A DNA stretch of 64,000 nt, from positions 62,001-126,000 of the forward strand of contig NZ_JACHHX010000004.1 of the NCBI RefSeq assembly GCF_014202935.1, given 5' to 3'. Made by a program: the position numbers and the translations under genes. This document shows positions 158 through 15,962 of this stretch, one piece after another. The notes beneath the pieces are model-generated. The model did no database searches. It saw nothing but the letters and a program-made list of their open reading frames with translations, and was not told the DNA's origin. Numbering within the stretch: the first letter of the stretch is position 1; each line of letters begins with the position of its first letter. This DNA comes from Rehaibacterium terrae. GTDB lineage: Bacteria; Pseudomonadota; Gammaproteobacteria; Xanthomonadales; Xanthomonadaceae.

Positions 158-1276
158 ATGCACGAGAACGACTTCCTCGCCCTGGCCCAGCCCGGCCTGC
201 GCCGGCTCAGGCCCTACGACCCCGGCCACGACATCGTCGCGCTGCGCCGCCGCTTCGGCGCGCGGCTGGTGGAGCTGGGTGGCAACGAGAACCCGCACGG
301 CCCCAGCCCGCGCGCCCGCGAGGCGATCCTCGATGCACTCGGCCAGCTCGCCCGCTATCCCGATCCGCTCGGCGGCGACCTCAAGGCCGCGCTGGCGAAC
401 AAGCTCGGCGTCGATGCCGCACAGATCCTGCTCGGCAATGGTTCGCACGAGCTGCTGATGCAGTTCGCGCAGGCCTTCTGCGGGCCCGAGGCCGGCGTGG
501 TCATGTCGCGCTACGGCTTCGCCGTGTATCCGCTGGCGGCGCTGGCCGCCGATGCGCCGCTGACCGTCGCCGAAGCGCTGCCTGAGGGCCATCCGATGCA
601 CCGCGGCCACGACCTCGACGCGATCCGCGCCGCAGTGGACGAGCGCACGCGGCTGGTCTACCTGTGCAACCCGAGCAATCCGGTCGGCACCTGGTTTCCC
701 AGCGCCGACCTTGAACGCTTCCTCGCCTCGTTGCCCGAGCAGGTGCTGGTCGTCGTGGACGAGGCCTATGCCGAATACGTCGAGGTGCCGGAGCTGCAGA
801 GCGCGCTGACGCTGCTGCCGCGCTTCCCGCGCCTGATCGTCACCCGCACCTTTTCCAAGGGTTACGGGCTGGCCGGGCTGCGGGTTGGTTACGCGGTGGC
901 GCAACCGGGGCTGGTGGCGGTGATGGAGCGGCTGCGCGAGAGCTTCAACGTCAACCTGCCCGGGCTGGCCGCCGCCGAGGCCGCGCTGGCCGACGAGGAG
1001 CACCTGGCCTGGCATGTCGAACAGAACCGCATCGAGCGCGAGTGGCTGAGCACGCGCCTTCGCGACCGCGGTCTGTACGTGCATCCCTCGCAGACCAATT
1101 TCCTGCTGGTGGATTTCGGCCGCGACGCCACGCCGTACGAGGAGGCCCTGCTGGCGCAGGGTGTGGTCCCGCGCCCGATGCGCGGCTACGGCCTGCCGAC
1201 CTGCCTGCGCATCAGCATCGGCACGCGCAGCGAGAACCAGCGGCTGCTGTCGGGGCTGGAGGGAGCCGGCGCATGA
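158..1276 (+). CDS. hisC: Histidinol-phosphate / aromatic aminotransferase (HisC family)
   Basis: A 372-residue class I/II PLP-dependent aminotransferase. The PLP-binding lysine is K234 in the motif TFSKGYGLAGLRVGY; the family's CNPSNPVGT and VVDEAYAEY motifs are present, as is GNGSHELL near residue 90. The frame stays open upstream to base 74, but that stretch is a proline- and glycine-rich translation of the intergenic GC repeat, so the ATG at 158 (MHENDFLAL) is preferred. Between pheA and aroA this copy may serve phenylalanine/tyrosine synthesis (aromatic or imidazole-acetol-phosphate aminotransferase) rather than histidine synthesis; the his operon is not in the window. Its stop overlaps the aroA start (ATGA). 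Confidence 0.9.
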   Translation: MHENDFLALAQPGLRRLRPYDPGHDIVALRRRFGARLVELGGNENPHGPSPRAREAILDALGQLARYPDPLGGDLKAALANKLGVDAAQILLGNGSHELLMQFAQAFCGPEAGVVMSRYGFAVYPLAALAADAPLTVAEALPEGHPMHRGHDLDAIRAAVDERTRLVYLCNPSNPVGTWFPSADLERFLASLPEQVLVVVDEAYAEYVEVPELQSALTLLPRFPRLIVTRTFSKGYGLAGLRVGYAVAQPGLVAVMERLRESFNVNLPGLAAAEAALADEEHLAWHVEQNRIEREWLSTRLRDRGLYVHPSQTNFLLVDFGRDATPYEEALLAQGVVPRPMRGYGLPTCLRISIGTRSENQRLLSGLEGAGA

Positions 1277-2592
1277 GCGGCGCATCGTCCCTGGACTGGC
1301 TCGCCGGCCCGGCCGGCCCGCTGCGCGGCGAACTCGTCGTGCCCGGCGACAAGTCGGTGTCGCACCGCGCGGTGATGCTGGGCGCGATCGCCGAGGGCGT
1401 CACCCGGGTACGCGGTTTTCTCGAAGGTGAGGACACGCGGGCGACGGCGCGCATCCTCGGCCAGCTCGGCGCGCGCATCGAGGCGCCGGCGGCCAGCGAG
1501 CGCATCGTCCACGGCGTCGGCCTGCACGGGCTGCGCGGCTGCGCCGACGACCTGGACTGCGGCAATGCCGGCACCGGCATGCGTCTGCTGGCCGGGCTGC
1601 TGGCGGGGCAGGTCTTCGACAGCCGGCTGGTCGGCGACGCCTCGCTCTCGCGCCGGCCGATGGGGCGGGTGATCGAGCCGCTGGCGCGGATGGGGGCGCG
1701 TATCGAGGCCGCCGAGGGCGGTCGCCCGCCGCTGATAATTCACGGCAACAATGCATTGCAAGGTATTGATTATGAAATGCCTGTGGCCAGCGCGCAGGTG
1801 AAGTCGGCGCTGCTGCTGGCGGGGCTGTACGCGCGCGGGGAAACCAGGGTGCGCGAGCCGCATCCGACCCGCGACTACACCGAACGGATGCTGGCCGCAT
1901 TCGGCTGGCCGGTGGCTTTCCGTCCCGGCGAGGCCGCGCTGAGCGGCGGGCAACGGCTGCGCGCGACCGAGGTCGTCGTCCCGGCGGATTTCTCCTCGGC
2001 GGCGTTCTTCCTGGTCGCCGCCACGCTGGTGCCAGGCTCCGAGCTTCGACTGCGCGCGGTCGGCATCAACCCGCGCCGCACTGGCCTGCTGCACGCGCTG
2101 CGGGCGATGGGGGCGGACATCCGGGTCGAGAACGCGGGCGAGCAGGGCGGCGAGCCGGTGGCCGATCTGGTCGTCCGCCACGCGCCGCTGCGCGGCATCG
2201 AGATCGACACCGCCTGGGTGCCGGACATGATCGACGAGTTCCCGGTCCTGTTCGTGGCCGCGGCCTGCGCGCGGGGACGTACCGTGGTGCGCGGCGCCGC
2301 CGAACTGCGGGTGAAGGAGTCCGACCGCATCGCCGCCATGGCCGAGGGGCTGCGTGCGCTCGGCATCGCCGTCGAGGAGCGTCCCGACGGCGCGGTGATC
2401 GAAGGCGGCCGCTTGCGCGGCGGCGCGGTGGACAGCCGTGGCGACCATCGCATCGCGATGAGCTTCGTGGTGGCGGCGCAGTTGGCCGGCGACCAGGTGC
2501 GGATCGGCGACTGCGCCAACGTCGCGACCTCGTTCCCCGGTTTCGAAGCGCTGGCGCGCGGCGCCGGAATGGGAGTGCGCAGGGCGGGCTGA
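1273..2592 (+). CDS. aroA: 3-phosphoshikimate 1-carboxyvinyltransferase (EPSP synthase)
   Basis: A 439-residue protein of normal family length. It catalyses transfer of enolpyruvyl from PEP to shikimate-3-phosphate, step six of the shikimate pathway, in the cytoplasm. Visible hallmarks are the substrate-binding GDKSVSHRAVML near residue 27, GNAGTGMRLLAGLLAG near 98, and the C-terminal LRVKESDRIAAMAEGL signature. The annotated start is the ATG that overlaps the hisC stop (ATGA), implying translational coupling; the longer open frame upstream lies inside hisC. Usual partners serC-pheA-aroA are replaced here by pheA-hisC-aroA. Confidence 0.97.
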   Translation: MSGASSLDWLAGPAGPLRGELVVPGDKSVSHRAVMLGAIAEGVTRVRGFLEGEDTRATARILGQLGARIEAPAASERIVHGVGLHGLRGCADDLDCGNAGTGMRLLAGLLAGQVFDSRLVGDASLSRRPMGRVIEPLARMGARIEAAEGGRPPLIIHGNNALQGIDYEMPVASAQVKSALLLAGLYARGETRVREPHPTRDYTERMLAAFGWPVAFRPGEAALSGGQRLRATEVVVPADFSSAAFFLVAATLVPGSELRLRAVGINPRRTGLLHALRAMGADIRVENAGEQGGEPVADLVVRHAPLRGIEIDTAWVPDMIDEFPVLFVAAACARGRTVVRGAAELRVKESDRIAAMAEGLRALGIAVEERPDGAVIEGGRLRGGAVDSRGDHRIAMSFVVAAQLAGDQVRIGDCANVATSFPGFEALARGAGMGVRRAG

Positions 2593-2593
2593 G

Positions 2594-3223
2594 TCAGCGT
2601 TCCAGACGGAACGCGATCGGGATCAGCACGCTCGACGGCACCGGTTGGCCGTCGTGCAGCGCCGGCTCGAAGCGCCAGCGCCGCACCGCCGCCACCGCCG
2701 CCGCATCGAGCTGGCGCGCGCCGCTGCCACGCTCCACCTGCACCCGCGTCGGCCGGCCGCGGGCATCCACCTCGACCCGCAGCAGCACCTCGCCCTCGAT
2801 GCGCCGACGCAGCGCCTGCGACGGGTAGCCCGGCGCGGGCTGGTTCGGCAGCGGACGGGCCTGGCGTTCGCTGACGACGACCGTGTCGCCGGGTGTCGAC
2901 GCCGGCGCCTGGTCGACGATGCGCGGGTCGACGTACGGCGGTGGCCGCATCCCTGCCGGTGGCGCTTCCGGAATCGCCAGGTCGGGCGCGGGGCCTGGCG
3001 GCGTCGGCAGCGTCGGCGTGGTCCCCGCGGCGGGTGCCGGGTCGGGCGGGGGCGGAGGCGGGCGGTTCGTTTCCGGCAGGCCGAAACGGAGCAGCCCGAG
3101 CAGCACGCCGAGGGCGAGCGCCAGCGCGAACACGCCTGCAGCCCGCGCGGCCGGGTGGCGGGTGAGGGCACGCCAGCGGTTTCCGGCTTCGTGGGAGGCT
3201 GGGGTCGGCTCGGTCGCGGCCAT
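2594..3223 (-). CDS. TonB-family energy transducer
   Basis: A 209-residue protein with a TonB layout: a short cytoplasmic N-terminus, one membrane helix around residues 23-43, a proline-rich periplasmic linker (PPPPPPDPAPAAGTTP), and a C-terminal TonB domain (PGYPSQALRRRIEGEVLLRV ... AAVRRWRFEPAL). TonB proteins carry proton-motive energy from ExbB/ExbD to outer membrane receptors; exbB and exbD are not here. The start at MAATEP is preferred because the upstream extension has no coding character; no strong ribosome-binding site is seen. It converges on aroA with a one-base gap. A TonB-dependent receptor lies 10 kb away, but a link is only inference. Confidence 0.85.
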   Translation of the reverse strand: MAATEPTPASHEAGNRWRALTRHPAARAAGVFALALALGVLLGLLRFGLPETNRPPPPPPDPAPAAGTTPTLPTPPGPAPDLAIPEAPPAGMRPPPYVDPRIVDQAPASTPGDTVVVSERQARPLPNQPAPGYPSQALRRRIEGEVLLRVEVDARGRPTRVQVERGSGARQLDAAAVAAVRRWRFEPALHDGQPVPSSVLIPIAFRLER

Positions 3224-3326
3224 GCTCGATGGAAGGAGTGGACTGGTCCGAGTAGGCCGCAGAACCGCCAGCCGCCGCAAGTTTCGTTCGTGTGCGTTTG
3301 CCCGCGGGGGCGGGTGGCCGCGATAA

Positions 3327-4666
<1,340 letters not shown>

Positions 4667-4742
4667 GGACACTGCCAGCGGTCAGCAGGCAGGCCGGGAA
4701 CCCAAACCGCTGCGATCCGCCCGGTTCGGCCCGGGTGGAGTT

Positions 4743-5324
4743 TCACGCCGCTCGTGGCAACAGTGCCGGCAGCTCGGCGAGGGCCGCCTTGAGCGCCGCC
4801 TCGCGTTGGGCAGGAGACAGGTTCAGCCCCTCGGCGCGGACGATGTGGAGGTCGTTCACGCCGATGAAGCCGAACACGTGCCGCAGGTAGCTTTCCTGGA
4901 AATCGGCCGGGCTGTCGGCCCCGTACTGGCCGCCGCGTGTGCTGACGACGATCACGCGCTTGTCGCCGGCCAGGCCCTGAGGGCCCTCGGCGGTGTAGCG
5001 GAAGGTCTTGCCGGCGACCACGATGCGGTCGATCCAGGCCTTGAGGGTGGAGGGGATGCTGAAGTTGTACATCGGGGCTCCGATCACCAGCACGTCGGAG
5101 GCCTGAAATTCGGCCAGCACTTCGGCGGCCAGTGCAGCCTGCCGTGGGTCGGCGGCGGTCAGGCTGGCCGCCGTCAGGTGCGGCAGGGGCTCGGCATCGA
5201 GGTCGCGGTAGCGGACCACGACGTTCGGGGCAGTCGACCGCAGGGCCGACACGATGGCGGTCGCGAGCTGGCGGCTGGCCGAGCCGTCGCCCATCGCACT
5301 CGAGTCGATATGCAGTACATTCAT
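4743..5324 (-). CDS. azoR: FMN-dependent NADH-azoreductase
   Basis: A 193-residue flavodoxin-like protein of the AcpD/AzoR family (usual length about 200). It begins with the family's MNVLHIDSSAMGDGSASR phosphate-binding loop and contains the flavin-binding GAPMYNFSIPSTLKAWID and STRGGQYG motifs. These cytoplasmic enzymes reduce quinones and azo compounds by two-electron transfer. Start 5324 is chosen over 5351 because a GGGAG sits 8 bases upstream and family members start at this point. It is divergent from a LysR regulator, the classic arrangement for LysR control of a quinone-responsive reductase. Confidence 0.93.
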   Translation of the reverse strand: MNVLHIDSSAMGDGSASRQLATAIVSALRSTAPNVVVRYRDLDAEPLPHLTAASLTAADPRQAALAAEVLAEFQASDVLVIGAPMYNFSIPSTLKAWIDRIVVAGKTFRYTAEGPQGLAGDKRVIVVSTRGGQYGADSPADFQESYLRHVFGFIGVNDLHIVRAEGLNLSPAQREAALKAALAELPALLPRAA

Positions 5325-5339
5325 GACATTGCTCCCATG

Positions 5340-5425
5340 ATCGTTGCACATGGAGCAACGATAAGATCTGACTTTTCCGGGATAAATGTCCTAAAAAGAC
5401 ATTGATCGTTCTCTTTATGGAACGA
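5340..5425. promoter_or_regulatory. azoR-lysR divergent control region with three inverted repeats
   Basis: Three perfect inverted repeats lie in the 106-base gap: atcgttgc-N7-gcaacgat (5340-5362), aatgtc-N7-gacatt (5385-5403) and tcgttc-N8-gaacga (5406-5425). Dyads of this kind at a LysR-target divergent promoter fit recognition and activation sites for the adjacent LysR protein. The AT-rich segment 5361-5419 is the likely promoter zone for both genes. Confidence 0.7.
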
Positions 5426-5430
5426 GGGCC

Positions 5431-6420
5431 ATGCAGGATCTCAACGATCTCTACTACTTCGCCATGGTGGTCGAGCACGGCGGCTTCGCTGCCGCCGAGC
5501 GCGCGCTGGGCATCCCCAAGTCGCGGCTGAGCCGGCGCATCGCGCAGCTGGAGACCGACCTCGGCGTGCGCCTGCTGCAGCGCTCCACCCGCCGTTTCGC
5601 CGTGACCGATGTCGGCCAGAGCATCTACCGCCATGCCCAGAGCATGATCGAGGAGGCGCGGGCCGCGCGCGAGGTGGTCGACCGCCTCAGCGCCGAGCCA
5701 CGCGGGCTGGTGCGGATGAGCTGCCCGGTGGCGCTGGCGCAGCGGCAGATCGCGCAGATCCTGCCCGACTTCCTCGCCTCGTACCCGCAGGTGCGCGTGC
5801 TGCTGCACGTCAGCAACCGCCGCGTCGATCTGATCAACGAAGGCATCGACATCGCCCTGCGCGTACGCTCGCAGCTCAACGACGACGGCAGCCTGGTGAT
5901 GCGCAGCTTCGGCTCGATCCAGGAGCTGCTGGTCGCCAGCCCCGCCTATCTCGCCCGTCATGGCCGCCCGCGCACGCCCGACGAGCTGCGTGCGCACGTG
6001 AGCCTGAGCATGAGCGAGGAGGAGGGCAAGCAGCGCTGGGACCTGCAGGGCCCCGATGGCGAAACCGTGCGCATCGAGATGCAGCCACGGGTGATGGCGC
6101 ACGACTTCCCCGTGCTGCGCGAGATGGCGGTGCGCGGTCTCGGCATCGCCTTGCTGCCGGAGACAGTCTGCGCCGACCAGGTGCGCACCGGCTCACTGGA
6201 GGTGGTGCTGCCGGACTGGAGTCTGCCGCAGGGCATCTGTCACGCCGTGTTTCCGACCCGGCGCGGCCTGCTGCCGGCCGTGCGCGTGCTGATCGACTTC
6301 CTTGCCGAGCGCCTGCCGCCGCTCATCGAGGCCTCGCGCCTGGATTGCGTCGGCTGCGACGGGCGCAAGGCAGTTTCGCCATCACCGGCCGGCGCGACAG
6401 CCGCCGCGCAAGGCAAGTAA
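5431..6420 (+). CDS. LysR-family transcriptional regulator
   Basis: A 329-residue LysR-type regulator. The winged helix-turn-helix occupies residues about 1-60 (FAAAERALGIPKSRLSRRIAQLE ... LLQRSTRRFAVTD) and the periplasmic-binding-like effector domain about 90-300. It most resembles the large subgroup that controls adjacent oxidoreductases such as azoreductases and quinone reductases. Divergent orientation to azoR and the dyads between them imply direct control of azoR and likely self-repression. The C-terminal 25 residues (after LIEASRLDC) are low-complexity and specific to this protein. The effector is unknown. Confidence 0.9.
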   Translation: MQDLNDLYYFAMVVEHGGFAAAERALGIPKSRLSRRIAQLETDLGVRLLQRSTRRFAVTDVGQSIYRHAQSMIEEARAAREVVDRLSAEPRGLVRMSCPVALAQRQIAQILPDFLASYPQVRVLLHVSNRRVDLINEGIDIALRVRSQLNDDGSLVMRSFGSIQELLVASPAYLARHGRPRTPDELRAHVSLSMSEEEGKQRWDLQGPDGETVRIEMQPRVMAHDFPVLREMAVRGLGIALLPETVCADQVRTGSLEVVLPDWSLPQGICHAVFPTRRGLLPAVRVLIDFLAERLPPLIEASRLDCVGCDGRKAVSPSPAGATAAAQGK

Positions 6421-6503
6421 ACTGCGCATCCGCCGGCGGGCCTCGCGATGGTGGCCGCGCACCAGCGAAGTTTCCCGCCGCGCGATTCAGCAGTACCAGC
6501 AAC

Positions 6504-6667
6504 GCAGAGATGGCCGAGTGGTCGCAGCCCGCGTCGTTTACGATCTGCCGGTGGCAGATCGTGACGCGGGCGAGGGTGAGGGTGACGCGGGCGAGGGTGA
6601 GGCAGGACGCCGAACGGCAGCGCACCAGGGATGGTTGCTCGCCGCGCAACCGGGGAGCATCGAGTAC
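6504..6667 (+). repeat. Repeat unit 1: tRNA-Ser 5' fragment plus hairpin
   Basis: Bases 6504-6521 match the first 18 bases of the intact tRNA-Ser at 6811 with one mismatch, then diverge in what would be the D-loop. There follows a long hairpin at 6528-6570: cccgcgtc + 4-base bulge + acgatctgcc, loop ggt, then ggcagatcgt + gacgcggg (18 base pairs). This unit holds an exact 21-base tandem duplication (6561-6581 and 6582-6602) absent from unit 2. Unit length is 164 bases. Confidence 0.85.
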
Positions 6668-6810
6668 GGAGAGATGGCCGAGTGGTCGCAGCCCGCGTCG
6701 TTTACGATCTGCCGGTGGCAGATCGTGACGCGGGCGAGGGTGAGGCAGGATGCCGAACGGCAACGCACCAGGGAAGGTTGCTCGCCGCGCGATTCAGGAG
6801 CACCAACTAC
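6668..6810 (+). repeat. Repeat unit 2: tRNA-Ser 5' fragment plus hairpin
   Basis: Bases 6668-6685 are identical to the first 18 bases of the intact tRNA-Ser, followed by the same hairpin (6692-6734) as in unit 1 and a nearly identical 75-base tail. Unit length is 143 bases, shorter than unit 1 by exactly the 21-base duplication. It runs directly into the intact tRNA gene. Confidence 0.85.
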
Positions 6811-6900
6811 GGAGAGATGGCCGAGTGGTTTAAGGCAGCGGTCTTGAAAACCGCCAGGGGCGAAAGCCTCTCGTGGGTTCGAATCCCACTCTCTCCGCCA
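6811..6900 (+). tRNA. serT: tRNA-Ser(UGA)
   Basis: A 90-base class II tRNA with encoded CCA. The acceptor stem pairs ggagaga (6811-6817) with tctctcc (6890-6896), followed by discriminator G and CCA. The anticodon stem gcggt/accgc encloses the loop cttgaaa, giving anticodon TGA at 6845-6847. A long variable arm (about 6856-6873) and the T-arm ggttcgaatcc are present, as expected for serine tRNAs. It reads UCA and probably other UCN codons. Two truncated copies of its 5' end lie just upstream. Confidence 0.97.
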
Positions 6901-6923
6901 CTTTCCGGCAGCGCCATCACGGC

Positions 6924-7547
6924 ATGCTTGGCGATGATGCGACGACGGCCCGCCTCCCCTTGAAGACAACCTCCATCCTCTGGCGCCGCCTCGACCAGCC
7001 CGGTCACGAATTCGCTCGGCTGGCGCCGTGCGATGGCGGCTGGCTGCTGTCGGGCGCGGCGGTGCTGGCGGAGGCGGGTGAGCCGTGCCGGCTCGACTAC
7101 CGCATCCGCTGCGATGCGCAGTGGCGAACGCTGGAGGTCGGGATCGAAGGCGTCGTTGGCACGCGCGAGGTCGCGCTGCGTGTCACGGTGGACGAGGCGC
7201 AGCGCTGGTTCGTCGATGGCGTGGAGTGCGCGGCGCTGGCCGGCTGCCAAGACGTCGACCTCGGCTTCAGCCCTTCGACCAATCTGCTGCCGATCCGCCG
7301 GCTCGCGCTGGCAGTGGGCGAGCAGGCGTCGGTACGCGCGGCATGGCTGCGGTTCCCGCAACTCGTGTTCGAGCCGTTGGAGCAGGTCTACCGACGGGTG
7401 GAGGCGAGGCGTTACGGCTACGAATCGGGCGGCGGGAGCTTCCGTGCCGAGCTCGATGTGGACGACGAGGGCTTCGTCGTCCGCTATCCGGATTTTTGGG
7501 AGCGGTTCGCGGCGGGGACCGGTCGAGGTCGGCGACGGCGAGGGTGA
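6924..7547 (+). CDS. Putative glycolipid-binding family protein (DUF1089-like)
   Basis: About 207 residues from ATG 6924, or 195 from a TTG at 6960; the start is uncertain, and codons before residue 13 or so look non-conserved. The body resembles the putative glycolipid-binding family PF06475: ILWRRLDQPGHEF at the start, then LDYRIRCDAQWRT, RRWFVDG-like, DVDLGFSPSTNLLPIRRL and a DDEGFVVRYPDFWERF end. The last dozen residues (GTGRGRRRRG) are translated from an FMN-reductase remnant on the other strand, so the natural C-terminus may have been altered by a deletion. It sits 24 bases after the tRNA-Ser. Function in the cell is not known. Confidence 0.7.
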   Translation: MLGDDATTARLPLKTTSILWRRLDQPGHEFARLAPCDGGWLLSGAAVLAEAGEPCRLDYRIRCDAQWRTLEVGIEGVVGTREVALRVTVDEAQRWFVDGVECAALAGCQDVDLGFSPSTNLLPIRRLALAVGEQASVRAAWLRFPQLVFEPLEQVYRRVEARRYGYESGGGSFRAELDVDDEGFVVRYPDFWERFAAGTGRGRRRRG

Positions 7548-7650
7548 GGTGGTCGAGGCCGTCACCGGCGGGCGCCTGTGCGGCGCGTAGCAGGTCGGTG
7601 TCGCAGGAGCCGGCGCGCAGACTGCCGGAGATTCCGAGGATGCGGTTCAT
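7537..7650 (-). pseudogene. Remnant of an NAD(P)H-dependent FMN reductase
   Basis: On the minus strand the first 35 or so codons read MNRILGISGSLRAGS followed by CDTDLLRAAQAPAGDG, which is the N-terminal phosphate-binding loop and first helix of the NADPH-dependent FMN reductase/chromate reductase family (normally about 180 residues). After about residue 36 the similarity is lost and the frame runs antisense into the 3' end of the preceding gene. The rest of the gene is missing, so this is a truncated remnant. It is the last member of the minus-strand run from the ECF sigma operon. Confidence 0.65.
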
Positions 7651-7716
7651 GGTGGGGCTCGTGCATCGCCGTGCGACGGTACGGGCATACGCTCGCCGTG
7701 AGCTTGACGGGCCCGG

Positions 7717-8250
7717 TCAGTCCCCGCCGGCCATCTCCAGAAGCTTGCTCACGGTGCGCCAGTTGCGCGCGGTGGCCGCCACACCCAGCGCCTTCTCGGC
7801 GCGCTCGGCGAGTCTGGATTTGCCGAAACCGTCGGGCGTGTGCAGATAGAAGGCGTGCTCGCCAAGAACATACCGCTCGCTGCCGCTGCGGTGACGCTCC
7901 AGCGCATCGAGGTCGGGTGCGGTGGCGGGCGCGGCAAGGAAGAACACATGCACGCGGGTCGGCGCGGCGTCGGCTTCCGGGAACGGATTGGCGGCGGCGA
8001 TGGCGCGCAGGCGGGCGGCGTCGAACACCAGCACGTCCGGGGCGAAGCCGCACTCGCGCGCGATGGCGTCGCGCAGCGTGCCGGCCAGCCGGCGCGCATC
8101 GCGATGGCGGAAAACGACGTTGCCGCTCTGGATGTAGGTGCGAACATCCTCGCCGCCGAGCGACTGGATCAGCGCGATCAGCGACTTCATCGGCAGGCTG
8201 CGGGTGCTGCCGACGTTGATGCCGCGCAGCAGGGCGATCCAGGTGTTCAT
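7717..8250 (-). CDS. DUF1697 family protein
   Basis: A 177-residue protein starting MNTWIALLRGINVGSTRSLPM, followed by VRTYIQSGNVVF, GFAPDVLVFDAARL and the C-terminal ATARNWRTVSKLLEMAG. This pattern is diagnostic of the DUF1697 family, whose members are found in many bacteria and whose function is unknown. Its start overlaps the stop of the YigZ-family gene (ATGA), so it is probably translated with that gene in the sigma-factor operon. Confidence 0.88.
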   Translation of the reverse strand: MNTWIALLRGINVGSTRSLPMKSLIALIQSLGGEDVRTYIQSGNVVFRHRDARRLAGTLRDAIARECGFAPDVLVFDAARLRAIAAANPFPEADAAPTRVHVFFLAAPATAPDLDALERHRSGSERYVLGEHAFYLHTPDGFGKSRLAERAEKALGVAATARNWRTVSKLLEMAGGD

Positions 8251-8840
8251 TCGGTCGTCTCCAGCCGGGCCTGTCCGCGCGTGGCGTCGCGGAGGGCGGC
8301 GGCCAGGGCGTCGAGGCGGTCGGCGGGCAGGCGGATGCGCAGGCGCAGGCCGTCGGCGGCGTAGTGTTCGTCGAGCTTCTCGGCCTGGTGCTGGGCGAGC
8401 AGGGTGTGCAGCGTGCCGGCGTGCTCGAAGCCGGCGGCGATGTCGGCTTCGCAGGTGTCGACCAGCGTGATGCGCGGGGCCAGTCGCAGGCACTCGGCGG
8501 CGGCGCCGCCATAGGCGCGCGCCAGGCCGCCGGCGCCGAGCTTAATGCCGCCGAACCAGCGCGTCACCACCACCATCACGCCGTCCAGCCCCTGCCCGTC
8601 GATGGCGGCGAGGATCGGCCGGCCGGCGGTGCCGGCGGGCTCGCCGTCGTCGCTGAAGCGGTAATGCTGCCCGATGCGGTAGGCCCAGCAGTTGTGGGTG
8701 GCGGCGGGGTCGGCGACCCGGTCGAGGAAGGCCAGTGCCGCCTCCGGCGAATCGACCGGCGCGGCCTGCGCCAGGTGACGGCTCTTCTTGACCTCCAGTT
8801 CGAACGAGGCCGGGCCGGCGAGGGTCTGCCGCCGGCTCAT
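8247..8840 (-). CDS. yigZ: IMPACT/YigZ family protein
   Basis: A 197-residue protein of normal YigZ length. The N-terminal UPF0029 domain carries ATHNCWAYRIG, FSDDGEPAGTAGRPIL and VVVTRWFGGIKLGAGGLARAYGGAA, the family signature; a DUF1949-like domain follows (from about residue 125). The eukaryotic homologue IMPACT modulates GCN1-GCN2 signalling; the bacterial role is unsettled. It is joined by ATGA overlaps to the anti-sigma gene upstream and the DUF1697 gene downstream. Confidence 0.93.
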   Translation of the reverse strand: MSRRQTLAGPASFELEVKKSRHLAQAAPVDSPEAALAFLDRVADPAATHNCWAYRIGQHYRFSDDGEPAGTAGRPILAAIDGQGLDGVMVVVTRWFGGIKLGAGGLARAYGGAAAECLRLAPRITLVDTCEADIAAGFEHAGTLHTLLAQHQAEKLDEHYAADGLRLRIRLPADRLDALAAALRDATRGQARLETTE

Positions 8841-9412
8841 TCGGCCAGCGCCCGCAAGTCGTCGGGCAGCGGGTGGTCGGGGTGGACGTCGATGAAGCGG
8901 CGCAGGCTGCGGCGGGCGTCGTCGGCCTGGCCGGCGGCGAGGCGCTCGCGGATGCGCGCGATCCAGTCTGCCGGGGCGAGGCTTTCGTCGCTTTCCGGCG
9001 GCGGCAGTGTGGCATCGGGGACGGAGAGCAGGGCGGCGGCGGGCGCCGGCGGGGCGATGTCGCGCGTCTGCGGTCGCACAGTGTCGGCCGCAGCACGCCC
9101 GCGGACGCTGTCCGGTGCCGGGACAGTCTCGAGTGCGGGGGCGAGCGGCGCCACTTCGTCGAGCGGTGCGTCCGGGCGCTGCCATTGCCAGAACAGGGCG
9201 ACTGCGAGCATGGCGGCGGCCGAGGCGCCGAAGCCCCAGCGCAGCGACAGGCGGCGGCGTGGGTTGTCCCGTTCGACAGCGGCGCGGGCGGCGGCGAGCA
9301 CGGCGGCATCCAGCTGCGACGATGGGCCGCCGCCGGACAGGGCGCGGACGATGCGCGCCAGCGCGCGCTCCTCGGCGTCGTGGGCCTCCTTGCGCGGATC
9401 GTCGGTGTGCAT
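8837..9412 (-). CDS. Probable membrane-bound anti-sigma factor
   Basis: A 191-residue protein with an acidic and basic N-terminal cytoplasmic part (residues 1-55), one membrane helix at about 59-77 (FGASAAAMLAVALFW) and an alanine/proline-rich periplasmic part ending in a helical segment (WIARIRERLAAGQADDARRSL). It starts one base inside the stop of the ECF sigma factor gene (TGATG), the normal arrangement for a cognate anti-sigma protein. It lacks the zinc-binding HxxxCxxC motif. Family assignment rests on topology and position. Confidence 0.75.
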   Translation of the reverse strand: MHTDDPRKEAHDAEERALARIVRALSGGGPSSQLDAAVLAAARAAVERDNPRRRLSLRWGFGASAAAMLAVALFWQWQRPDAPLDEVAPLAPALETVPAPDSVRGRAAADTVRPQTRDIAPPAPAAALLSVPDATLPPPESDESLAPADWIARIRERLAAGQADDARRSLRRFIDVHPDHPLPDDLRALAE

Positions 9413-9963
9413 CAGCTCGCCCTCAGTCTGGCGCGCAGCTTGTCCATCGCGTAGCGCAGCCGCGATTTGACGGTTTCACGGCCGACGCCGGTGATGCGGC
9501 CGATCTCCTCCAGCGACAGTTCCTGCTCCAGTCGCAGCAGCACCGCCTCGCGTTGCTCCGGCGGCAGTTCCTCCAGCGCGCGCTGCAGCCGGCGGCGCTC
9601 CTCGAATTCGGACAAACGCCTGTCGGGGGCATCCGGGTCTGCTTCGCGGGCGATGCGTTCCTCGCCGTCGGGCGGCGGATCCGGGCGGTGGCGCTTGGCG
9701 CGCCAGTGGTCGGCCAGCCGGTGGTGCGCCACCTGGTACAGCCAGGTGGCGAAGCGGGCTTCCGGCCGGTAGCGGATCCGGGCGGCGATCACCCGCTGCC
9801 AGACATCCTGGAACAGCTCTTCGGCCAGGCCGCGGTCGCGCACGCTGCCGTGCAGAAAGCGGAACAGCGGTGCGCGGTGACGGGCGTACAGCGTCTCGAA
9901 GGCGTTCGCCTCGCCACGGCCGAAGGCCTGCATCAGCTCCTCGTCGGTCGGCTCCCGGGTCAT
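9412..9963 (-). CDS. ECF-type RNA polymerase sigma factor
   Basis: About 183 residues. Region 2 spans about 10-80 (AFETLYARHRAPLFRFL, LAEELFQDVWQRVI, FATWLYQVAHHRLADHWR) and region 4 about 118-180 (LEELPPEQREAVLLRLEQELSLEEIGRITGVGRETVKSRLRYAM), with a helix-turn-helix for the -35 element. It directs RNA polymerase to an envelope- or oxidative-stress-type regulon held in check by the downstream anti-sigma protein. A GTG six bases upstream is an alternative start. Typically such factors activate their own promoter, which would lie in 9964-10037. Confidence 0.93.
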   Translation of the reverse strand: MTREPTDEELMQAFGRGEANAFETLYARHRAPLFRFLHGSVRDRGLAEELFQDVWQRVIAARIRYRPEARFATWLYQVAHHRLADHWRAKRHRPDPPPDGEERIAREADPDAPDRRLSEFEERRRLQRALEELPPEQREAVLLRLEQELSLEEIGRITGVGRETVKSRLRYAMDKLRARLRAS

Positions 9964-10037
9964 CGCCACAGCCTAGCCGCTGGCGAGGTCCACGGGAATG
10001 CTAGTCTTTGTCCGGGGCGTTGTTATGCTCCCGGGGC

Positions 10038-13007
10038 ATGAGCCGGCGACGTATCCAGGCCAAGACCAGCAGGTCGCGCGACGCGCAGCGCACCAAGGCG
10101 TCGGCCTGGCGGGCCATCGCCTATGCCGAGGACATGGCCGCGCTGGCCGAGGTGCTGCGCGAATTCGCGGCCGGCGCGCCCGTGGCCCTGTGCTGCGGAC
10201 GTTCGGGTGGGCGCAGCGGTCGTTTCGGCAGCGATGCCGGCCTCCCGGCCGACCTGCGCGATGCCCTGGCCGAGGCCATCGAGGCCCTCGACGACCGTCC
10301 GCGCCGCAGCGGGTCGGGTGCCGGTTTCGCCCAGGCGAGGGCCGTCCCGCATGCGCTGGGCTGGGTGGCGGTGGCGCTGGGATGCGAGGGGCAGTGCTCC
10401 GAGGACCGCCTGCGCCACCTCGCCGATGCCGCGCTGCGTCGGGCGGCCACCCTGCTCGAGCGCGAGCACCTGCACGAGACCGTGCACCGGTTGGAGAAGG
10501 CCGAACTGCTGCAGAGCGCGCTCTACGCCATCGCCGACATGGCCAGCGCGCCGCTCGAGATGAGCGAGATGCTGCGCGGCATCCATCGGATCGTGTCCGA
10601 CCTGATGTATGCCGAGAACTTCTACATCGTCCTCTACGATGCCGCACGCGAATCGATCCGCTTCCTCTATTTTGCCGACTCCAAGGACAACTTCGCCCCC
10701 GATCCGGAGACCGAGTTCGCCATCGCCGACCTGCCGAACAGTCTCACCGTGGCGCTGATCCGCCGCGGCCAGTCGATGATGGGCCCGTCCGGTCGTGTCG
10801 CGGAAGAGCTCGGGCTGGCGTCCAGCCCGCAGACCGGGCCGGAGAGCGAGGACTGGCTGGGCGTGCCCATGCTCGACGACCACGGCGTGCGCGGCGCCGT
10901 CGTGGTGCAGAGCTACGACCACGGCGTGCGCTACAGCGAGGAGGACCGGACGCTGCTGACCTTCGTGGCGCGGCATATCCTGACCGCTCTGTTGCGCAAG
11001 CAGGGACAGCACGAGCTGGAGCAGCGGGTGCGCGACCGCACCCGCGCGCTCGCCGCCGCGAACGACGAGCTGCGCCAGGAGATCGAGGAGCGCCAGCGCG
11101 CCCAGCGCCTGCTGGCCGCGCAGTTCCGCATCGCCGAGCTGTCCATCGGCGCCGACAGCATGGAGTCGTTCTATGCCCAGGTGCATGCCGTGGTCGGCGA
11201 GCTGCTGTACGCGAAGAACTTCTTCATCGCGCTGCTCTCCGAGGACGGCACGGCACTGGAGTTCCCTTACTCGGTGGACGAGCGTGACCCGCCACGGCCA
11301 CGTCGCCTGCTCGGGCGCGGACTCACCGAGTACGTGCTGCGCACCGGCCGTCCGCTACTGGTCGATCAGGCAGCCCACGAAGCGCTGCAGGCGCGGGGCG
11401 AGGTGATCACCTCCGGCGCGCCCTCGGACTGGTGGCTGGGAGTGCCGCTGGTGCAGGACGAGCGCACCATCGGAGTGCTTGCCGTGCAGAGCTACTCGCC
11501 CGGGATCGGCTTCAACCTGCACGATCAGGAGCTGCTGAGCTTCGTCGCCTTCCATATCGCTGCCGGCCTGGAGCGCAAGCAGGCGCAGGATCGCCTCAAA
11601 CTCGCCTATGCCGAGCTGGAGCAGCGCGTCGAGGAACGCACCCATGCCCTGGCCGAGGCCAACCGCGAACTGCGCGCGATGATCGCCGAGCGCGAGCGCG
11701 CGGAGGAGCGGCTGACCCACCAGGCTCTGCACGACAGCCTGACCGGGCTGCCCAACCGCGTCCGTCTGCTCGACCGGCTGCAGGCGGCGATGGCACGCTA
11801 TCACCGCGACCCGCGAAGGTCGTTCGCGGTGCTGTTCCTCGACCTCGACCGCTTCAAGGTGGTCAACGACAGTGTCGGCCACCTGATCGGTGACGAGATG
11901 CTCGTGCAGGCCGGCCGGCGCATCGCCGGCGCGGTGCGCGAGCCGGATACCGTGGCCCGGCTCGGGGGAGACGAGTTCGCCATCCTGCTGGAGGAAATCC
12001 ACGGCGAAGAGGAGGCGTGCGAGGTGGCGGCGCGCGTGATCGACGCACTCGCCGCGCCGATGATCATCGGCGACAAGGAGCTGTACACCTCGGCCAGCAT
12101 CGGCATCGCCATGGCCCATCCGCGCTACAGCCAGGGCGAGGAACTGCTGCGCGACGCCGATGTGGCGATGTATCGGGCCAAGGCTGCCGGCCGGCAGCGC
12201 TACGAGATCTTCGACGAGCAACTGCGCCATGAGGCCTTGCGCGTGCTCGACATCGAAAGCGACCTGCGCCGGGCCCTGGCCACCGGCGATTTCGAGCCGC
12301 ACTTCCAGTCCATCGTGCGGCTCGGCGATGCCCACCGGGTGGGTCTGGAGTCGCTGTTGCGCTGGCGCCATCCCTGCCACGGCATTCTCTGTCCCGAGCA
12401 CTTCCTGGCCGTGGCGCAGGACAGCGGCCTGATCGAGCAGATCGATTGGCTGCTGTTCGAGCGCACCTGCCGGCTCGCGCCATCCCTGCTCGGCCCCGGG
12501 CAGTACGTCAGCATCAATGTCTCGCCACGTCATTTCCGTTCGCCGCGACTGGCCGGGCGACTGCTGGAGCTGATGGCCGTCAATGGCCTGGCGCCGTCAC
12601 AGGTGCGCATCGAGATCACCGAGGGGGCCCTGCTCGACGACTCCTCGGTGGTGCGCGACAGCCTGGTGCAGTTGCGCGAGGCCGGTGTCGTGGTACAGCT
12701 GGATGACTTCGGTACCGGCTATTCGGCACTGTCGTACCTGCACCGCTTCCCGATCGGCTCGCTCAAGATCGACCGCAGCTTCATCGCCGGGCTGGACAGC
12801 AGCTCCGGGCAAGGTGGCACGGCGGTGGTGCGTGCCATCCTGGCACTGGCGCGCTCGCTCGGCATCGAGGCGATCGCCGAGGGCATCGAAACCCCGGCGC
12901 AGCGCGAGACGCTGATCGGGCTGGGTTGCGCCTACGGCCAGGGCTACCTGTTCGACGCGCCATGGGCGGCCGGCGAGATCGGCGCGCCGGACGTTCACCT
13001 GGCCTGA
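10038..13007 (+). CDS. Cytoplasmic GAF-GAF-GGDEF-EAL protein (c-di-GMP turnover)
   Basis: A 989-residue protein without membrane segments. Order: N-terminal region (1-160), GAF 1 (about 165-317), coiled coil, GAF 2 (about 360-515), coiled coil, GGDEF domain (about 560-735) and EAL domain (about 750-985). The GGDEF motif is intact at 643-647, with the inhibitory-site motif REPD five residues before it, so cyclase activity is plausible. The EAL signature is ESL (771-773), but the catalytic set looks complete: INVS, ITEG, DDFGTGYS, KIDRSF, AEGIET and QGYLF. Both synthesis and hydrolysis of c-di-GMP may be possible, controlled by the GAF domains. Start 10038 (ATG) is preferred over an upstream TTG. 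Confidence 0.93.
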   Translation: MSRRRIQAKTSRSRDAQRTKASAWRAIAYAEDMAALAEVLREFAAGAPVALCCGRSGGRSGRFGSDAGLPADLRDALAEAIEALDDRPRRSGSGAGFAQARAVPHALGWVAVALGCEGQCSEDRLRHLADAALRRAATLLEREHLHETVHRLEKAELLQSALYAIADMASAPLEMSEMLRGIHRIVSDLMYAENFYIVLYDAARESIRFLYFADSKDNFAPDPETEFAIADLPNSLTVALIRRGQSMMGPSGRVAEELGLASSPQTGPESEDWLGVPMLDDHGVRGAVVVQSYDHGVRYSEEDRTLLTFVARHILTALLRKQGQHELEQRVRDRTRALAAANDELRQEIEERQRAQRLLAAQFRIAELSIGADSMESFYAQVHAVVGELLYAKNFFIALLSEDGTALEFPYSVDERDPPRPRRLLGRGLTEYVLRTGRPLLVDQAAHEALQARGEVITSGAPSDWWLGVPLVQDERTIGVLAVQSYSPGIGFNLHDQELLSFVAFHIAAGLERKQAQDRLKLAYAELEQRVEERTHALAEANRELRAMIAERERAEERLTHQALHDSLTGLPNRVRLLDRLQAAMARYHRDPRRSFAVLFLDLDRFKVVNDSVGHLIGDEMLVQAGRRIAGAVREPDTVARLGGDEFAILLEEIHGEEEACEVAARVIDALAAPMIIGDKELYTSASIGIAMAHPRYSQGEELLRDADVAMYRAKAAGRQRYEIFDEQLRHEALRVLDIESDLRRALATGDFEPHFQSIVRLGDAHRVGLESLLRWRHPCHGILCPEHFLAVAQDSGLIEQIDWLLFERTCRLAPSLLGPGQYVSINVSPRHFRSPRLAGRLLELMAVNGLAPSQVRIEITEGALLDDSSVVRDSLVQLREAGVVVQLDDFGTGYSALSYLHRFPIGSLKIDRSFIAGLDSSSGQGGTAVVRAILALARSLGIEAIAEGIETPAQRETLIGLGCAYGQGYLFDAPWAAGEIGAPDVHLA

Positions 13008-13010
13008 CTG

Positions 13011-13038
13011 CCGCACCCCGGCCGCAGCCGGGGTGCGG
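13011..13038. terminator. Hairpin between convergent genes
   Basis: A perfect 12-base-pair stem, ccgcaccccggc (13011-13022) and gccggggtgcgg (13027-13038), with a 4-base loop, lies just after the GGDEF-EAL stop and before the stop of the minus-strand receptor gene. It probably ends transcription from both sides, although the U-run is weak. Confidence 0.75.
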
Positions 13039-13053
13039 GCGATGTTGCGACGG

Positions 13054-15705
13054 TTACCAGACGTCGACCGACAGGCGCACGTACCACTCGCCGCCGTTGA
13101 AGCCGAACGGGGAGGACAGCGGATAGCTGAGCCCGAGGAAGTTCAGCACCCCGTTGGTTTCGCGGTCGGGATAGGTGTCGAAGATGTTCTGTCCGCCCAC
13201 GGTGAGGTGGAACCGGTCGCGGATGTGCCAGGTCGCAGCCAGGTCGAACAACCACTTGGAACCGAAGCTGGCCCGTTCGCCGAAGGTGAAGTCCTGCCAG
13301 CCGGAGTAGCGGTTGGCACGCACGAGCAGGTCCACGTTCCACGGCGAGCGGTAGTCGAAGGTCAGCACCGAGCGGTTGCGCGGCAGCTGGTTCTCCAGGT
13401 CGAACACGCGCTCCTCGTCGATCGTGCCCGGATCGAAGCGTCGCACCTTCTGCTTGTTGTAGCTGTGGCGCGCGTCGAAGATGGCCCAGCCGTACTCGCC
13501 GAAGTCGGCGCGGTAGTTGGCCACCAGATCCACGCCCTCCACGGTGGTGTCGAAGGCGTTGGTGAAGAACGACACGAAGCCGAGCAGTTCGGCGCCGGGC
13601 ACGCCGGCGTCGATCAACCGCTGCTGTTCGGGCGAGCCGGGCTCGATGTTGAAGCTGGCCAGTGCGATGCGGTCGTCGACGTCGATGTTGTAGTAGTCGA
13701 GCGTCACGGTGAAATCACGTGACGGTGCGTACACGATGCCGGCCGAGTAGGCGAACGACTCCTCGACTTCCAGCGGCCGCGAGCCCAGCGCGACCGAGGC
13801 CGGATGGCTCACTGGGAAGGTGCCCAGCGGCACCAGTGTGCCGGAGGCGTCGGCGGTGGTGGTCACGTCCAGCGTATTGGCCTGGCCCGGCGTCGGCGCG
13901 CGGAAGCCGGTGTTGACCGTGCCGCGCAGGGCGAATGTCTCGCTGGCCTGGAAGCGCGCCGACACTTTCCAGTCGAAGTGGGTGTCGAAGGCTGCCGATT
14001 CCTCGACGCGGCCGGCCAGGCCTACCGTCAGCCGGTCGGTCGGATCGGTCTCGAGGTCGAGGTAGGTGGCCCAGCTGTTCTGGCTGAAGCGGCCGGCCGA
14101 TTCCGGGCCGTCGCCCTGGAAGCCGTCCGAGCCGACGCCGAACAGCAGCGCGGTGGGGCCGCTCTCGTACGAGGCGGGGTCGCCCTGGCCGATGATGTAA
14201 GTCTCGCTGCGCCATTCGGCGCCGAAGGCGATGTTGAGCGGCGCGGCGAACACGCTGTTCTCCAGCGCGTAGGCGAAGTCCAGGTTGACGCCACGCTCGC
14301 GCTGCGTCAGCGTGCCGGGCCGGAACTCGGTCGGGCTGAGGCGACCGAGGCTGGGGTTGATCGAGTCGCGCAACAGGTAGGCGACCCGGTTCTCGCCCAG
14401 GCGCCCGCTCAGATCCCAGCGCAGGCCGCCGGCGCTTTCGCCGCGGATGCCGAGAACGGTTTCGAAGTCCTCGATCTCGGCGCCGAAGGTGGGCGTGTAG
14501 CCGCCCGGGAAGCGGGTATGGATCGGGTTCAGGGCAACCCAGCCGGACGGGCTGGTCGCGCTCGGGGTGAGGTAGTCGGCCGGGTTGAGGCCGCGGGCGA
14601 TGATGGCGTTGACCAGGGCCTGGTCGACCGGGTCGGGCTGGCCGTCGCCGTCGCTGTCCACCATCAGCGTGCCGCGCGGGCGGATGCCGGGTACGCCGAC
14701 CGGGGTGCGATAGAAGAAGCTGGAGTCGAAGTCCTGGTCGGCGTAGCTGCCGAAAGCGTAGGCGCGAACGCTGTCGCTGACCCCGATCTCGCTGTTGAAG
14801 AACAGCCGGATGCCCTCGGCATTGGGATCGCCCCAGCGCTGGCCGAGGCCGTTGAACGGCACCCGGTCGCGACCGACGATGTTGCCCACGACGGCGGCGT
14901 CGGCGCGCGGATGGCCGCGCGAGGTGAAGTCGTTGTTGAAATACTCGGCGGTGAGGTTGAAGAAGCCGTCGCTGGTCAACGGCGTGCCCCAGCTGAGCGA
15001 TGCGCGGTACTTGTCGCCGTCGCCTTCGTAGGTCGAGCCGTATTGGCCGTCGATCTTCAGGCCGCTGGAGTAGTCGTTGAGGATGATGTTGATGACGCCG
15101 GCGATCGCATCGGAGCCGTACTGCGCCGAGGAGCCGTCACGCAGCACCTCCACGCGTTGGATCGCCGCGGCCGGGATCAGGCCGAAATCGACCGCCTGCG
15201 CGCCCTGGTTGACCGTGCCGAACGGCTCGACCTGCAGGTTGACCAGCGCTGAGCGGTGGCGGCGCTTGCCGTTGATGAGCACCAGTGTCTGGTCGGGCGG
15301 CAGGTTGCGCAGGCTGGCCGGGCGGATGAAGGCGGTGCCGTCGGCGATGGGGAAACGCTGGGTGTTGAACGACGGTGCGATGTTGGCCAGCTGGTCGGTG
15401 AATTCAGGCGAGGACTGCCGTTCCAGCGTCGTCGGGTAGAACACGTCGATCGGCGAGATCGACTCGGTCGGCACGCGACCGCGCACACGGGTGCCCGTGA
15501 CGATGATCTGGTCGAGCTGGGCGACTTCCTCTTCGGCGGCCGTGGCCTCCTGTGCCTGGGCCGGGACGGCCAGCACGGCGCAGAACAGCGCCGTGGCCGA
15601 GTACAGGGCCGAGCGGCGCAGTCTCGCGCCGGCATGCTGACGGATCCCGGCGCCAGGCATGCCCGGCCGTTGCGGCCTGGGCCTCTTGCATTTCTGCGTC
15701 TGCAT
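13054..15705 (-). CDS. TonB-dependent outer membrane receptor
   Basis: An 883-residue receptor. A signal peptide ends near AQAQEATAAEEE (about residue 53); a TonB box-like stretch (DQIIVTGTRV), the plug domain (LANIAPSFNTQRF, RNLPPDQTLVLINGKRRH, VEVLRDGSSAQYGSDAIAGVINI) and a 22-strand barrel follow, ending in the aromatic terminal residue W. Start 15705 has GGGGAG seven bases upstream; the longer frame lacks coding character. An aspartate-rich loop DSDGDGQPDPVD (residues 350-361) resembles a calcium-binding element. The substrate cannot be inferred. The gap 15706-15962 upstream contains an AT-rich island (about 15815-15890) that is the likely promoter zone. Confidence 0.92.
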   Translation of the reverse strand: MQTQKCKRPRPQRPGMPGAGIRQHAGARLRRSALYSATALFCAVLAVPAQAQEATAAEEEVAQLDQIIVTGTRVRGRVPTESISPIDVFYPTTLERQSSPEFTDQLANIAPSFNTQRFPIADGTAFIRPASLRNLPPDQTLVLINGKRRHRSALVNLQVEPFGTVNQGAQAVDFGLIPAAAIQRVEVLRDGSSAQYGSDAIAGVINIILNDYSSGLKIDGQYGSTYEGDGDKYRASLSWGTPLTSDGFFNLTAEYFNNDFTSRGHPRADAAVVGNIVGRDRVPFNGLGQRWGDPNAEGIRLFFNSEIGVSDSVRAYAFGSYADQDFDSSFFYRTPVGVPGIRPRGTLMVDSDGDGQPDPVDQALVNAIIARGLNPADYLTPSATSPSGWVALNPIHTRFPGGYTPTFGAEIEDFETVLGIRGESAGGLRWDLSGRLGENRVAYLLRDSINPSLGRLSPTEFRPGTLTQRERGVNLDFAYALENSVFAAPLNIAFGAEWRSETYIIGQGDPASYESGPTALLFGVGSDGFQGDGPESAGRFSQNSWATYLDLETDPTDRLTVGLAGRVEESAAFDTHFDWKVSARFQASETFALRGTVNTGFRAPTPGQANTLDVTTTADASGTLVPLGTFPVSHPASVALGSRPLEVEESFAYSAGIVYAPSRDFTVTLDYYNIDVDDRIALASFNIEPGSPEQQRLIDAGVPGAELLGFVSFFTNAFDTTVEGVDLVANYRADFGEYGWAIFDARHSYNKQKVRRFDPGTIDEERVFDLENQLPRNRSVLTFDYRSPWNVDLLVRANRYSGWQDFTFGERASFGSKWLFDLAATWHIRDRFHLTVGGQNIFDTYPDRETNGVLNFLGLSYPLSSPFGFNGGEWYVRLSVDVW

Positions 15706-15962
15706 TGTCTTGCTCCCCTGAACGTGTCGAAGGACGGCCGCCTGCCGACGGCCACCGGCGGGAGCCGCCCTCCGGTTGGCCGGAGTGGTCTTTCGGACTC
15801 CCGTCATCAGCGCTTTTACTCTTTTCTTACATCCAGGGAAAGGGTTTTCTCCGGGGATAAAAGCTTTTCTGAAACAGACGGTTGCATTCCGGCGACGCGG
15901 AGCGCATCGCTGTCGGACGGACGGCGGGACAGGGACAAGCAGGGGGCGGAGGGCTGGCCGGG

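Follow-up and report, generated by a model that had tools for sequence, protein, structure and literature searches.

Tandem units of tRNA 5′ fragments and hairpins upstream of tRNA genes in Lysobacterales: a possible source of RsmA/CsrA-titrating leader RNA

We analyzed a 64,000-nucleotide stretch of the Rehaibacterium terrae genome (contig NZ_JACHHX010000004.1, positions 62,001 to 126,000, forward strand), hereafter called the window. Its single tRNA gene, a tRNA-Ser(TGA) predicted by ARAGORN, is preceded by an array in which pieces of the tRNA's own 5′ end alternate with hairpins (Table 1). A repeat search registered three copies at the tRNA-Ser locus, spaced 164 and 143 nt apart. The next gene upstream of the array encodes a LysR regulator and ends at 6420. 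A seryl-tRNA synthetase gene lies two genes beyond it (3366-4646), near the tRNA-Ser(UGA); two other loci (L044 and L049) also have, ahead of the tRNA, a coding end that by eye resembles the seryl-tRNA synthetase C-terminus.

Table 1. Features of the tRNA-Ser array, in window coordinates.
Feature	Position	Strand	Basis
Tail of a putative third, decayed unit	6453-6503	+	repeat family D3
Unit 1, 164 nt: tRNA fragment, hairpin, module, leader	6504-6667	+	sequence, repeat comparison
tRNA-Ser nt 1-19 of unit 1, single change at base 2 (18/19)	6504-6522	+	
Long bulged hairpin of unit 1	6527-6571	+	fold, z -7.3
Two-hairpin GGA module of unit 1	6595-6641; hairpins 6601-6611, 6624-6635	+	model R1, 69 bits (training sequence)
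Unit 2, 143 nt	6668-6810	+	sequence, repeat comparison
tRNA-Ser nt 1-19 of unit 2, 19/19 identical	6668-6686	+	
Long bulged hairpin of unit 2	6691-6735	+	fold
Two-hairpin GGA module of unit 2	6738-6784; hairpins 6744-6754, 6767-6778	+	model R1, 67.9 bits (training sequence)
Intact tRNA-Ser(UGA)	6811-6900	+	ARAGORN; Rfam RF00005, 62 bits

A reading of the DNA from its letters alone (the sequence-only reading) had described tRNA-5′/hairpin units of 164 and 143 bases before an intact tRNA-Ser and had argued that this is not a simple tandem tRNA duplication. Both points hold, and the units emerge as repeats. The locus, given earlier as 6478-6900, also stands, with unit starts corrected to 6504 and 6668, as does the tRNA-Ser 5′ origin of their first bases, which extends over 19 bases rather than 18. 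The hairpin that follows is indeed identical in both units; given earlier as 43 bases with 18 pairs, it comprises 19 bp with a one-sided 4-nt bulge and a GGT loop (6527-6571 and 6691-6735). Its predicted energy is -36.1 kcal/mol (z -7.3), and none of 200 shuffles was equally stable.

The tail of each unit forms a module of two GGA-loop hairpins, GGC-AGGAY-GCC and ACC-AGGGAW-GGT. Both are present in the minimum-energy fold of unit 2, whose two GGA loops were reached by 3 of 60 shuffles. The minimum-energy fold of unit 1, which is longer by 21 nt, does not form both module hairpins together, and its one GGA loop is unremarkable (31/60 shuffles). Upstream of unit 1, positions 6453-6473 share 81% identity with the unit tails at 6616 and 6759 (repeat family D3) – a resemblance that suggests the remnant of a third, decayed unit.

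Within its own genome, the array appears to be confined to this locus. Whole-genome BLAST with a 152-nt piece of unit 1 gave the two units as the only strong matches, the next best spanning 24 nt (E 0.008), and strong matches to R1, a covariance model of the module, were likewise limited to the window copies. A loose scan for two GGA hairpins was unspecific, with six further places in the window; R1 scored at most 8.4 bits elsewhere in the window, these places included. Scanning window positions 5400-8000 and 11 loci with Rfam models (cmscan, E up to 1 or 0.1) returned known genes of the tRNA and SRP type and no match to a family of the CsrB/RsmZ kind or to the TwoAYGGAY model RF01731, and in the stretches scanned the element is placed in no Rfam family. 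Matches of Rfam sX4 and plastid families on the tRNA were dismissed, with scores far below the gathering scores. A simple promoter scan of the window found no promoter-like site. We also dropped the idea that the D-stem 3′ strand is regained after the insert (GGCAGCG in the window): a density estimate had made it appear mildly unusual, and the same letters occur in a module that has no tRNA (L253).

We found the same order of parts at other tRNA genes. An 80-nt piece of unit 2 devoid of tRNA sequence found matches in 14 of 247 family genomes, the genome under study included, and the matching loci place the module behind a fragment of tRNA-Cys (L251) or tRNA-His (L252, L254, and L259); related modules also occur with no tRNA nearby (L253, L255, L261, and L262). 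The module consensus is GGC-A(N)GGAY-GCC, followed after 11-14 nt by a hairpin of three pairs whose loop contains GGA; in L253 the first hairpin reads GCC-ATGGAT-GGC. Among 13 aligned window-type modules, selected by their likeness to the window, all have GGA in both loops and form all six pairs. Their covariation score was 0.338 versus 0.060 ± 0.037, with two of five measures within the range of shuffles (151/500 and 138/500) and two of the six pairs variable.

R1 recovered further copies at tRNA-His in two genomes (G025 and G023) and at tRNA-Arg(CCG) in a genome of another family (G081). With a cut-off of E 0.01, 41 of 60 genomes gave matches, most of them weak and possibly due to chance. 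Two genomes, G017 and G023, had 19 and 16 weak matches, many of them equal in score, which suggests that these could be other dispersed hairpin repeats. In all five tRNA-His loci compared, the fragment equals the intact tRNA over nt 1-20, and both the tRNA-Arg(CCG) locus and window unit 2 show identity over 19 nt; the more diverged tRNA-Cys fragment was missed by the automated comparison. The distance from fragment to intact gene is 127-143 nt in the His, Arg, and window loci compared, except for window unit 1, at 307 nt. The junction, read in nine loci, is GGT-CGA in seven and GGTGGC in two; in the window it is GGT-CGC.

A cassette-independent search for a broken tRNA-His identified three carriers among 398 genomes, and each of them has the module. 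The genus g26 holds several states: the tRNA-His form in G025 and G316, two units with the same kind of cassette on ~47 nt of tRNA-Arg(UCU) and none at tRNA-His in G373, and a cassette at neither tRNA in G462. At that tRNA operon, G004 and G013 contain no cassette. Similar bulged hairpins that lack the module are dispersed across g26. The His, Arg, and Cys cases refute a restriction to tRNA-Ser(UGA). The search for a broken tRNA-Leu(NAG) gave matches in 24 of 299 genomes, and its backward control also matched in many; of 26 sites, three were read, two resembling an intact tRNA-Leu and one unrelated. A D-loop scan at tRNA-Ser matched six of 398 genomes – four intact tRNA-Ser(GCU) genes, one unrelated site, and the window. 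The sequence-only reading had made its case depend on conservation in close relatives: the architecture is kept, and the exact D-loop fusion at tRNA-Ser occurs, among the 398 genomes, in this one only.

A second architecture breaks the tRNA in the anticodon loop. Searching 100 relatives with the locus revealed extra matches to the tRNA 5′ end just upstream of the true tRNA, for example in G072, G016, G031, and G020. We defined a broken tRNA-Ser(UGA) as a 5′ half that ends in the anticodon TGA and is followed by a base other than A. This pattern is present in 34 of 398 genomes of the order, which belong to 15 of 99 genera; a single array contains as many as five copies. A scan of 84,980 species genomes identified 97 stretches, a number that differs from a count of genomes since some records share one assembly. 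Among the 80 stretches examined, 58 contain the fragment and a downstream tRNA-Ser complete through the T arm (60 by a looser count). The rest comprise 12 near a contig end, four with no intact copy behind the fragment, four ordinary tRNAs with G37, and two in which the copy merely passes the anticodon. The nearest distance from fragment to intact tRNA across the 58 is 101-432 nt (median 161, three above 193).

By label, the carriers are mostly Lysobacterales – Rhodanobacter, Dyella, Dokdonella, Luteimonas, Lysobacter, Oleiagrimonas, and others – with further cases under Thiobacillus, Sideroxydans, Burkholderiales, Alphaproteobacteria, Holosporaceae, and Eggerthellaceae; labels of metagenome-assembled genomes may be wrong. 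Counting arrays, eight genomes have a related core at 0 to 4 places each.

Units of this architecture consist of tRNA nt 1-36, a set of hairpins, and then AA plus the 3′ strand of the anticodon stem, the 3′ part of the tRNA being absent. Because an exact reverse complement follows the AA, the anticodon stem can close. Of 92 distinct units, 80 have this perfect complement to their own stem strand, across six stem types, versus 0.9% in mononucleotide shuffles. The flank before the first unit is mostly unlike the flanks between units, with a unit-like upstream flank in L052, L053, L059, and L074. On visual inspection, a -10-like motif appears ahead of many first units and not between units. The acceptor strand of the fragment is identical to that of the intact tRNA in 22 of 31 distinct fragment-tRNA pairs and different in nine. 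In L086 (G013) and L165, the fragment has GGAAGCG and the intact tRNA GGAGAGA, so that fragment and tRNA need not have a recent common origin.

To characterize the hairpins, we assembled 49 distinct units of 155-169 nt, excluding six loci of other groups by name, and retained 38 after a 96.5% similarity filter; the structure was drafted from one unit, and the Lysobacterales units were collected through their tRNA part, not through GGA. In these 38 units, 13 pairs changed on both sides versus 6.6 ± 1.3 in shuffles, and the covariation score was 0.134 versus 0.064 ± 0.004 (0/500 shuffles; slid controls 0.018-0.038). Further pair types were not unusually numerous (26 versus 23.8; 71/500 shuffles). 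RNAalifold recovered the anticodon stem and five hairpins from the 38-unit alignment, and did not recover the D stem or the extra TTGA/TCAA pairs.

The loops of these hairpins differ sharply in GGA content. GGA occupies the loops of hairpins 1 and 4 in all 38 aligned Lysobacterales units, versus 1/38, 0/38, and 1/38 in hairpins 2, 3, and 5. No GGA loop appears in the minimum-energy folds of 25 of 31 units from four other groups (assigned from record labels and layout), versus 4 of the 65 remaining units. The GGA-less units make up 9/12 of the short Lysobacter type, 10/10 of the beta-like, 4/6 of the alpha, and 2/3 of the Eggerthellaceae group. The GGA total over all 96 units (117 versus 49.2) is no test because the units are related.

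We observed fusions to yet other sites. The break of a tRNA-Ser fragment in G020 lies in the T loop, and the fold contains two GGA hairpins. A terminator-like hairpin (GGTTCCTTTTCTTTGGACAAGC..AAGAAAAGGAACC; L114 of G317, L115, and L116) carries a multi-hairpin cassette in its loop once and exists in an empty form at two other places. At the SRP RNA gene (RF00169) of the genome under study, a partial gene copy and a bulged hairpin adjoin, as judged by eye. A weak R1 match of 22.9 bits (G000:C6:63938-63986; L305 1339-1387, minus) also lies beside this SRP RNA gene, on the opposite strand. The site is near a tRNA-Ser(GGA), and L258 of G462 looks similar. For the tRNA copies, a target-site duplication of fixed length was considered and rejected: breaks at about nt 19-20, 36, and 47 and in the T loop all go with a copy that begins close to tRNA nt 1. 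The original observation is confirmed and broadens into a recurrent tRNA-5′-fragment/hairpin element with several break points and several tRNA hosts. The earlier suggestion that an element using the tRNA 5′ end was amplified locally agrees with this recurrence of fused cassettes. The alternative that the hairpin is dispersed with no link to tRNAs does not apply to the genome under study, though in relatives some copies do lie away from tRNAs.

The array partly resembles several characterized systems. The E. coli tyrT repeats, which give rise to rtT RNA, are cotranscribed with a tRNA and arranged in tandem, each unit of ~180 bp including one end of that tRNA; there the 3′ end is repeated, downstream of the gene, whereas in the window the 5′ end is repeated, upstream. 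REP elements, which are associated with RAYT transposases, are imperfect hairpins dispersed between genes; the window hairpin is similarly imperfect, but its own genome has it at this locus only. Like CsrB/RsmZ-type RNAs, the motif has several hairpins with GGA in the apical loop, two per window unit. According to one report, CsrB/CsrC and RsmX/Y/Z contain such repeated loops, with CAGGA(U/A/C)G in the loops of CsrB, selected CsrA ligands mostly have six-base loops, and RsmE binds ANGGAN loops (PMC7652899). These RNAs are stand-alone sRNA genes, whereas the array is fused to a tRNA 5′ end, stands before a tRNA, and has predicted binding. A second report notes no homologue of the CsrB/RsmY type in Xanthomonas genomes; it describes RsmU of Xanthomonas campestris, from the same order as the window, as an RsmA-binding RNA cut from a longer transcript, which derives from an mRNA 3′ UTR with no tRNA and is found, per that paper, in Xanthomonas only (PMC7694677). 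The TwoAYGGAY motif (RF01731) has, like the module, two GGA-loop hairpins with predicted CsrA binding (PMC4333381). In E. coli, RrA/RrB/RrF show that RNA which binds CsrA can be transcribed together with stable RNA, here from rRNA operons; unlike the window array, these RNAs lie between rRNA terminators and have no tRNA fragment or array (PMC8144298). Among the titles, abstract openings, and passages seen in the open PMC literature, we found no description of tRNA 5′-fragment arrays.

Our preferred reading, to which we assign a probability of roughly 40%, is that the array is a tRNA-borne hairpin cassette whose leader RNA titrates RsmA/CsrA. A folded cassette joined to a duplicated 5′ end of the tRNA gene behind it would enter the transcript as tRNA leader, and RNase P, cutting at the tRNA 5′ end, would free the leader RNA. 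In the window, the paired GGA-loop hairpins of each unit could form the site for one RsmA/CsrA dimer, and the leader RNA would titrate the protein in step with tRNA transcription. We infer binding because the paired loops stay GGA while the stems change and because the genome encodes one CsrA (one PF02599 match above the cut-off). The cassette would arise locally, with the window architecture joining the tRNA gene at GGT (in the D loop, once in the variable loop) and other architectures joining in the loop of the anticodon or T arm; duplication of the tRNA 5′ part would leave an intact tRNA in place, and units could then multiply in tandem. If RsmA/CsrA is bound, a class of Csr/Rsm antagonists would be embedded in tRNA precursors and a global post-transcriptional switch tied to stable-RNA synthesis. 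A broader version is unlikely, though worth stating: tRNA genes, and perhaps other structured RNA genes, may serve as nurseries in which a cassette re-fuses to a loop, duplicates the arm from base to loop, which keeps the gene alive, and amplifies into leader RNAs with paired GGA loops that soak up RsmA/CsrA. If true, tRNA transcription would be coupled directly to the Csr/Rsm switch in Lysobacterales.

Function is the weakest step of the titration reading. The units of the same layout whose predicted folds lack GGA count against a general RsmA role, and the copies away from tRNAs and by the SRP RNA gene fit a mobile hairpin equally well. The main rival is accordingly a mobile hairpin with no cellular function, which we regard as a tentative but serious possibility. 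A non-autonomous element, REP-like or IS200/IS605-like and moving as single-stranded DNA, would enter at GGT or in hairpin loops, with GGA as part of the element and an array that has no cellular role; tRNA genes would be frequent hosts because they form hairpins. The shifting hosts within g26 (tRNA-His, tRNA-Arg(UCU), or neither), the recurrent GGT junctions (GGT-CGA, GGTGGC, and GGT-CGC in the window), the cassettes away from tRNAs, the terminator-like hairpin with its empty forms, the SRP RNA copy, and the module-free bulged hairpins of g26 all favor such an element. It is less easily reconciled with the low copy number (two strong units in the genome under study, 0 to 4 places per genome in eight), with GGA loops that stay constant while neighboring hairpin loops vary, and with the absence of a transposase among ten neighboring proteins (window 1042-15807). 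Were it correct, the array would document repeatable entry into tRNA genes without killing them.

The remaining explanations fare less well. Fragment and hairpins might act in cis, shaping the folding, processing, or transcription of the next tRNA: fragments mostly copy the tRNA they precede (22/31 pairs share the acceptor strand), the anticodon stem is kept closed in 80/92 units, and the spacing is mostly 101-193 nt. The nine pairs with differing acceptor strands, the use of several tRNAs and break points, and the modules found with no tRNA make this improbable. Neutral debris of template switching – a stalled fork that copied a tRNA arm, jumped to a distant hairpin, and returned, with array length drifting afterwards – would account for copies that start near tRNA nt 1 and end at a loop at several break points, and for the partial copies near SRP RNA, but it sits poorly with compensatory changes and constant GGA loops, and we consider it quite improbable. 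A scar left by an integrative element with the tRNA as attachment site, proposed earlier as a decayed integration site, draws on the use of tRNA anticodon and T loops by tyrosine recombinases. The same ten neighboring proteins include no integrase or transposase family, the units are too short for genes, the 5′ rather than the 3′ part of the tRNA is duplicated, and related cassettes are fused at different points of several tRNAs; on present evidence, the array is not an integration scar, an origin to which we give very little credence.

We observed one further kind of structure at tRNA-Ser genes. L237 (G399) and L232 (G304) contain long palindromes that span a tRNA-Ser 3′ end and terminator and are followed by more hairpin cassettes. 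These palindromes are located behind tRNA-Ser(GCU) or its 3′ end.
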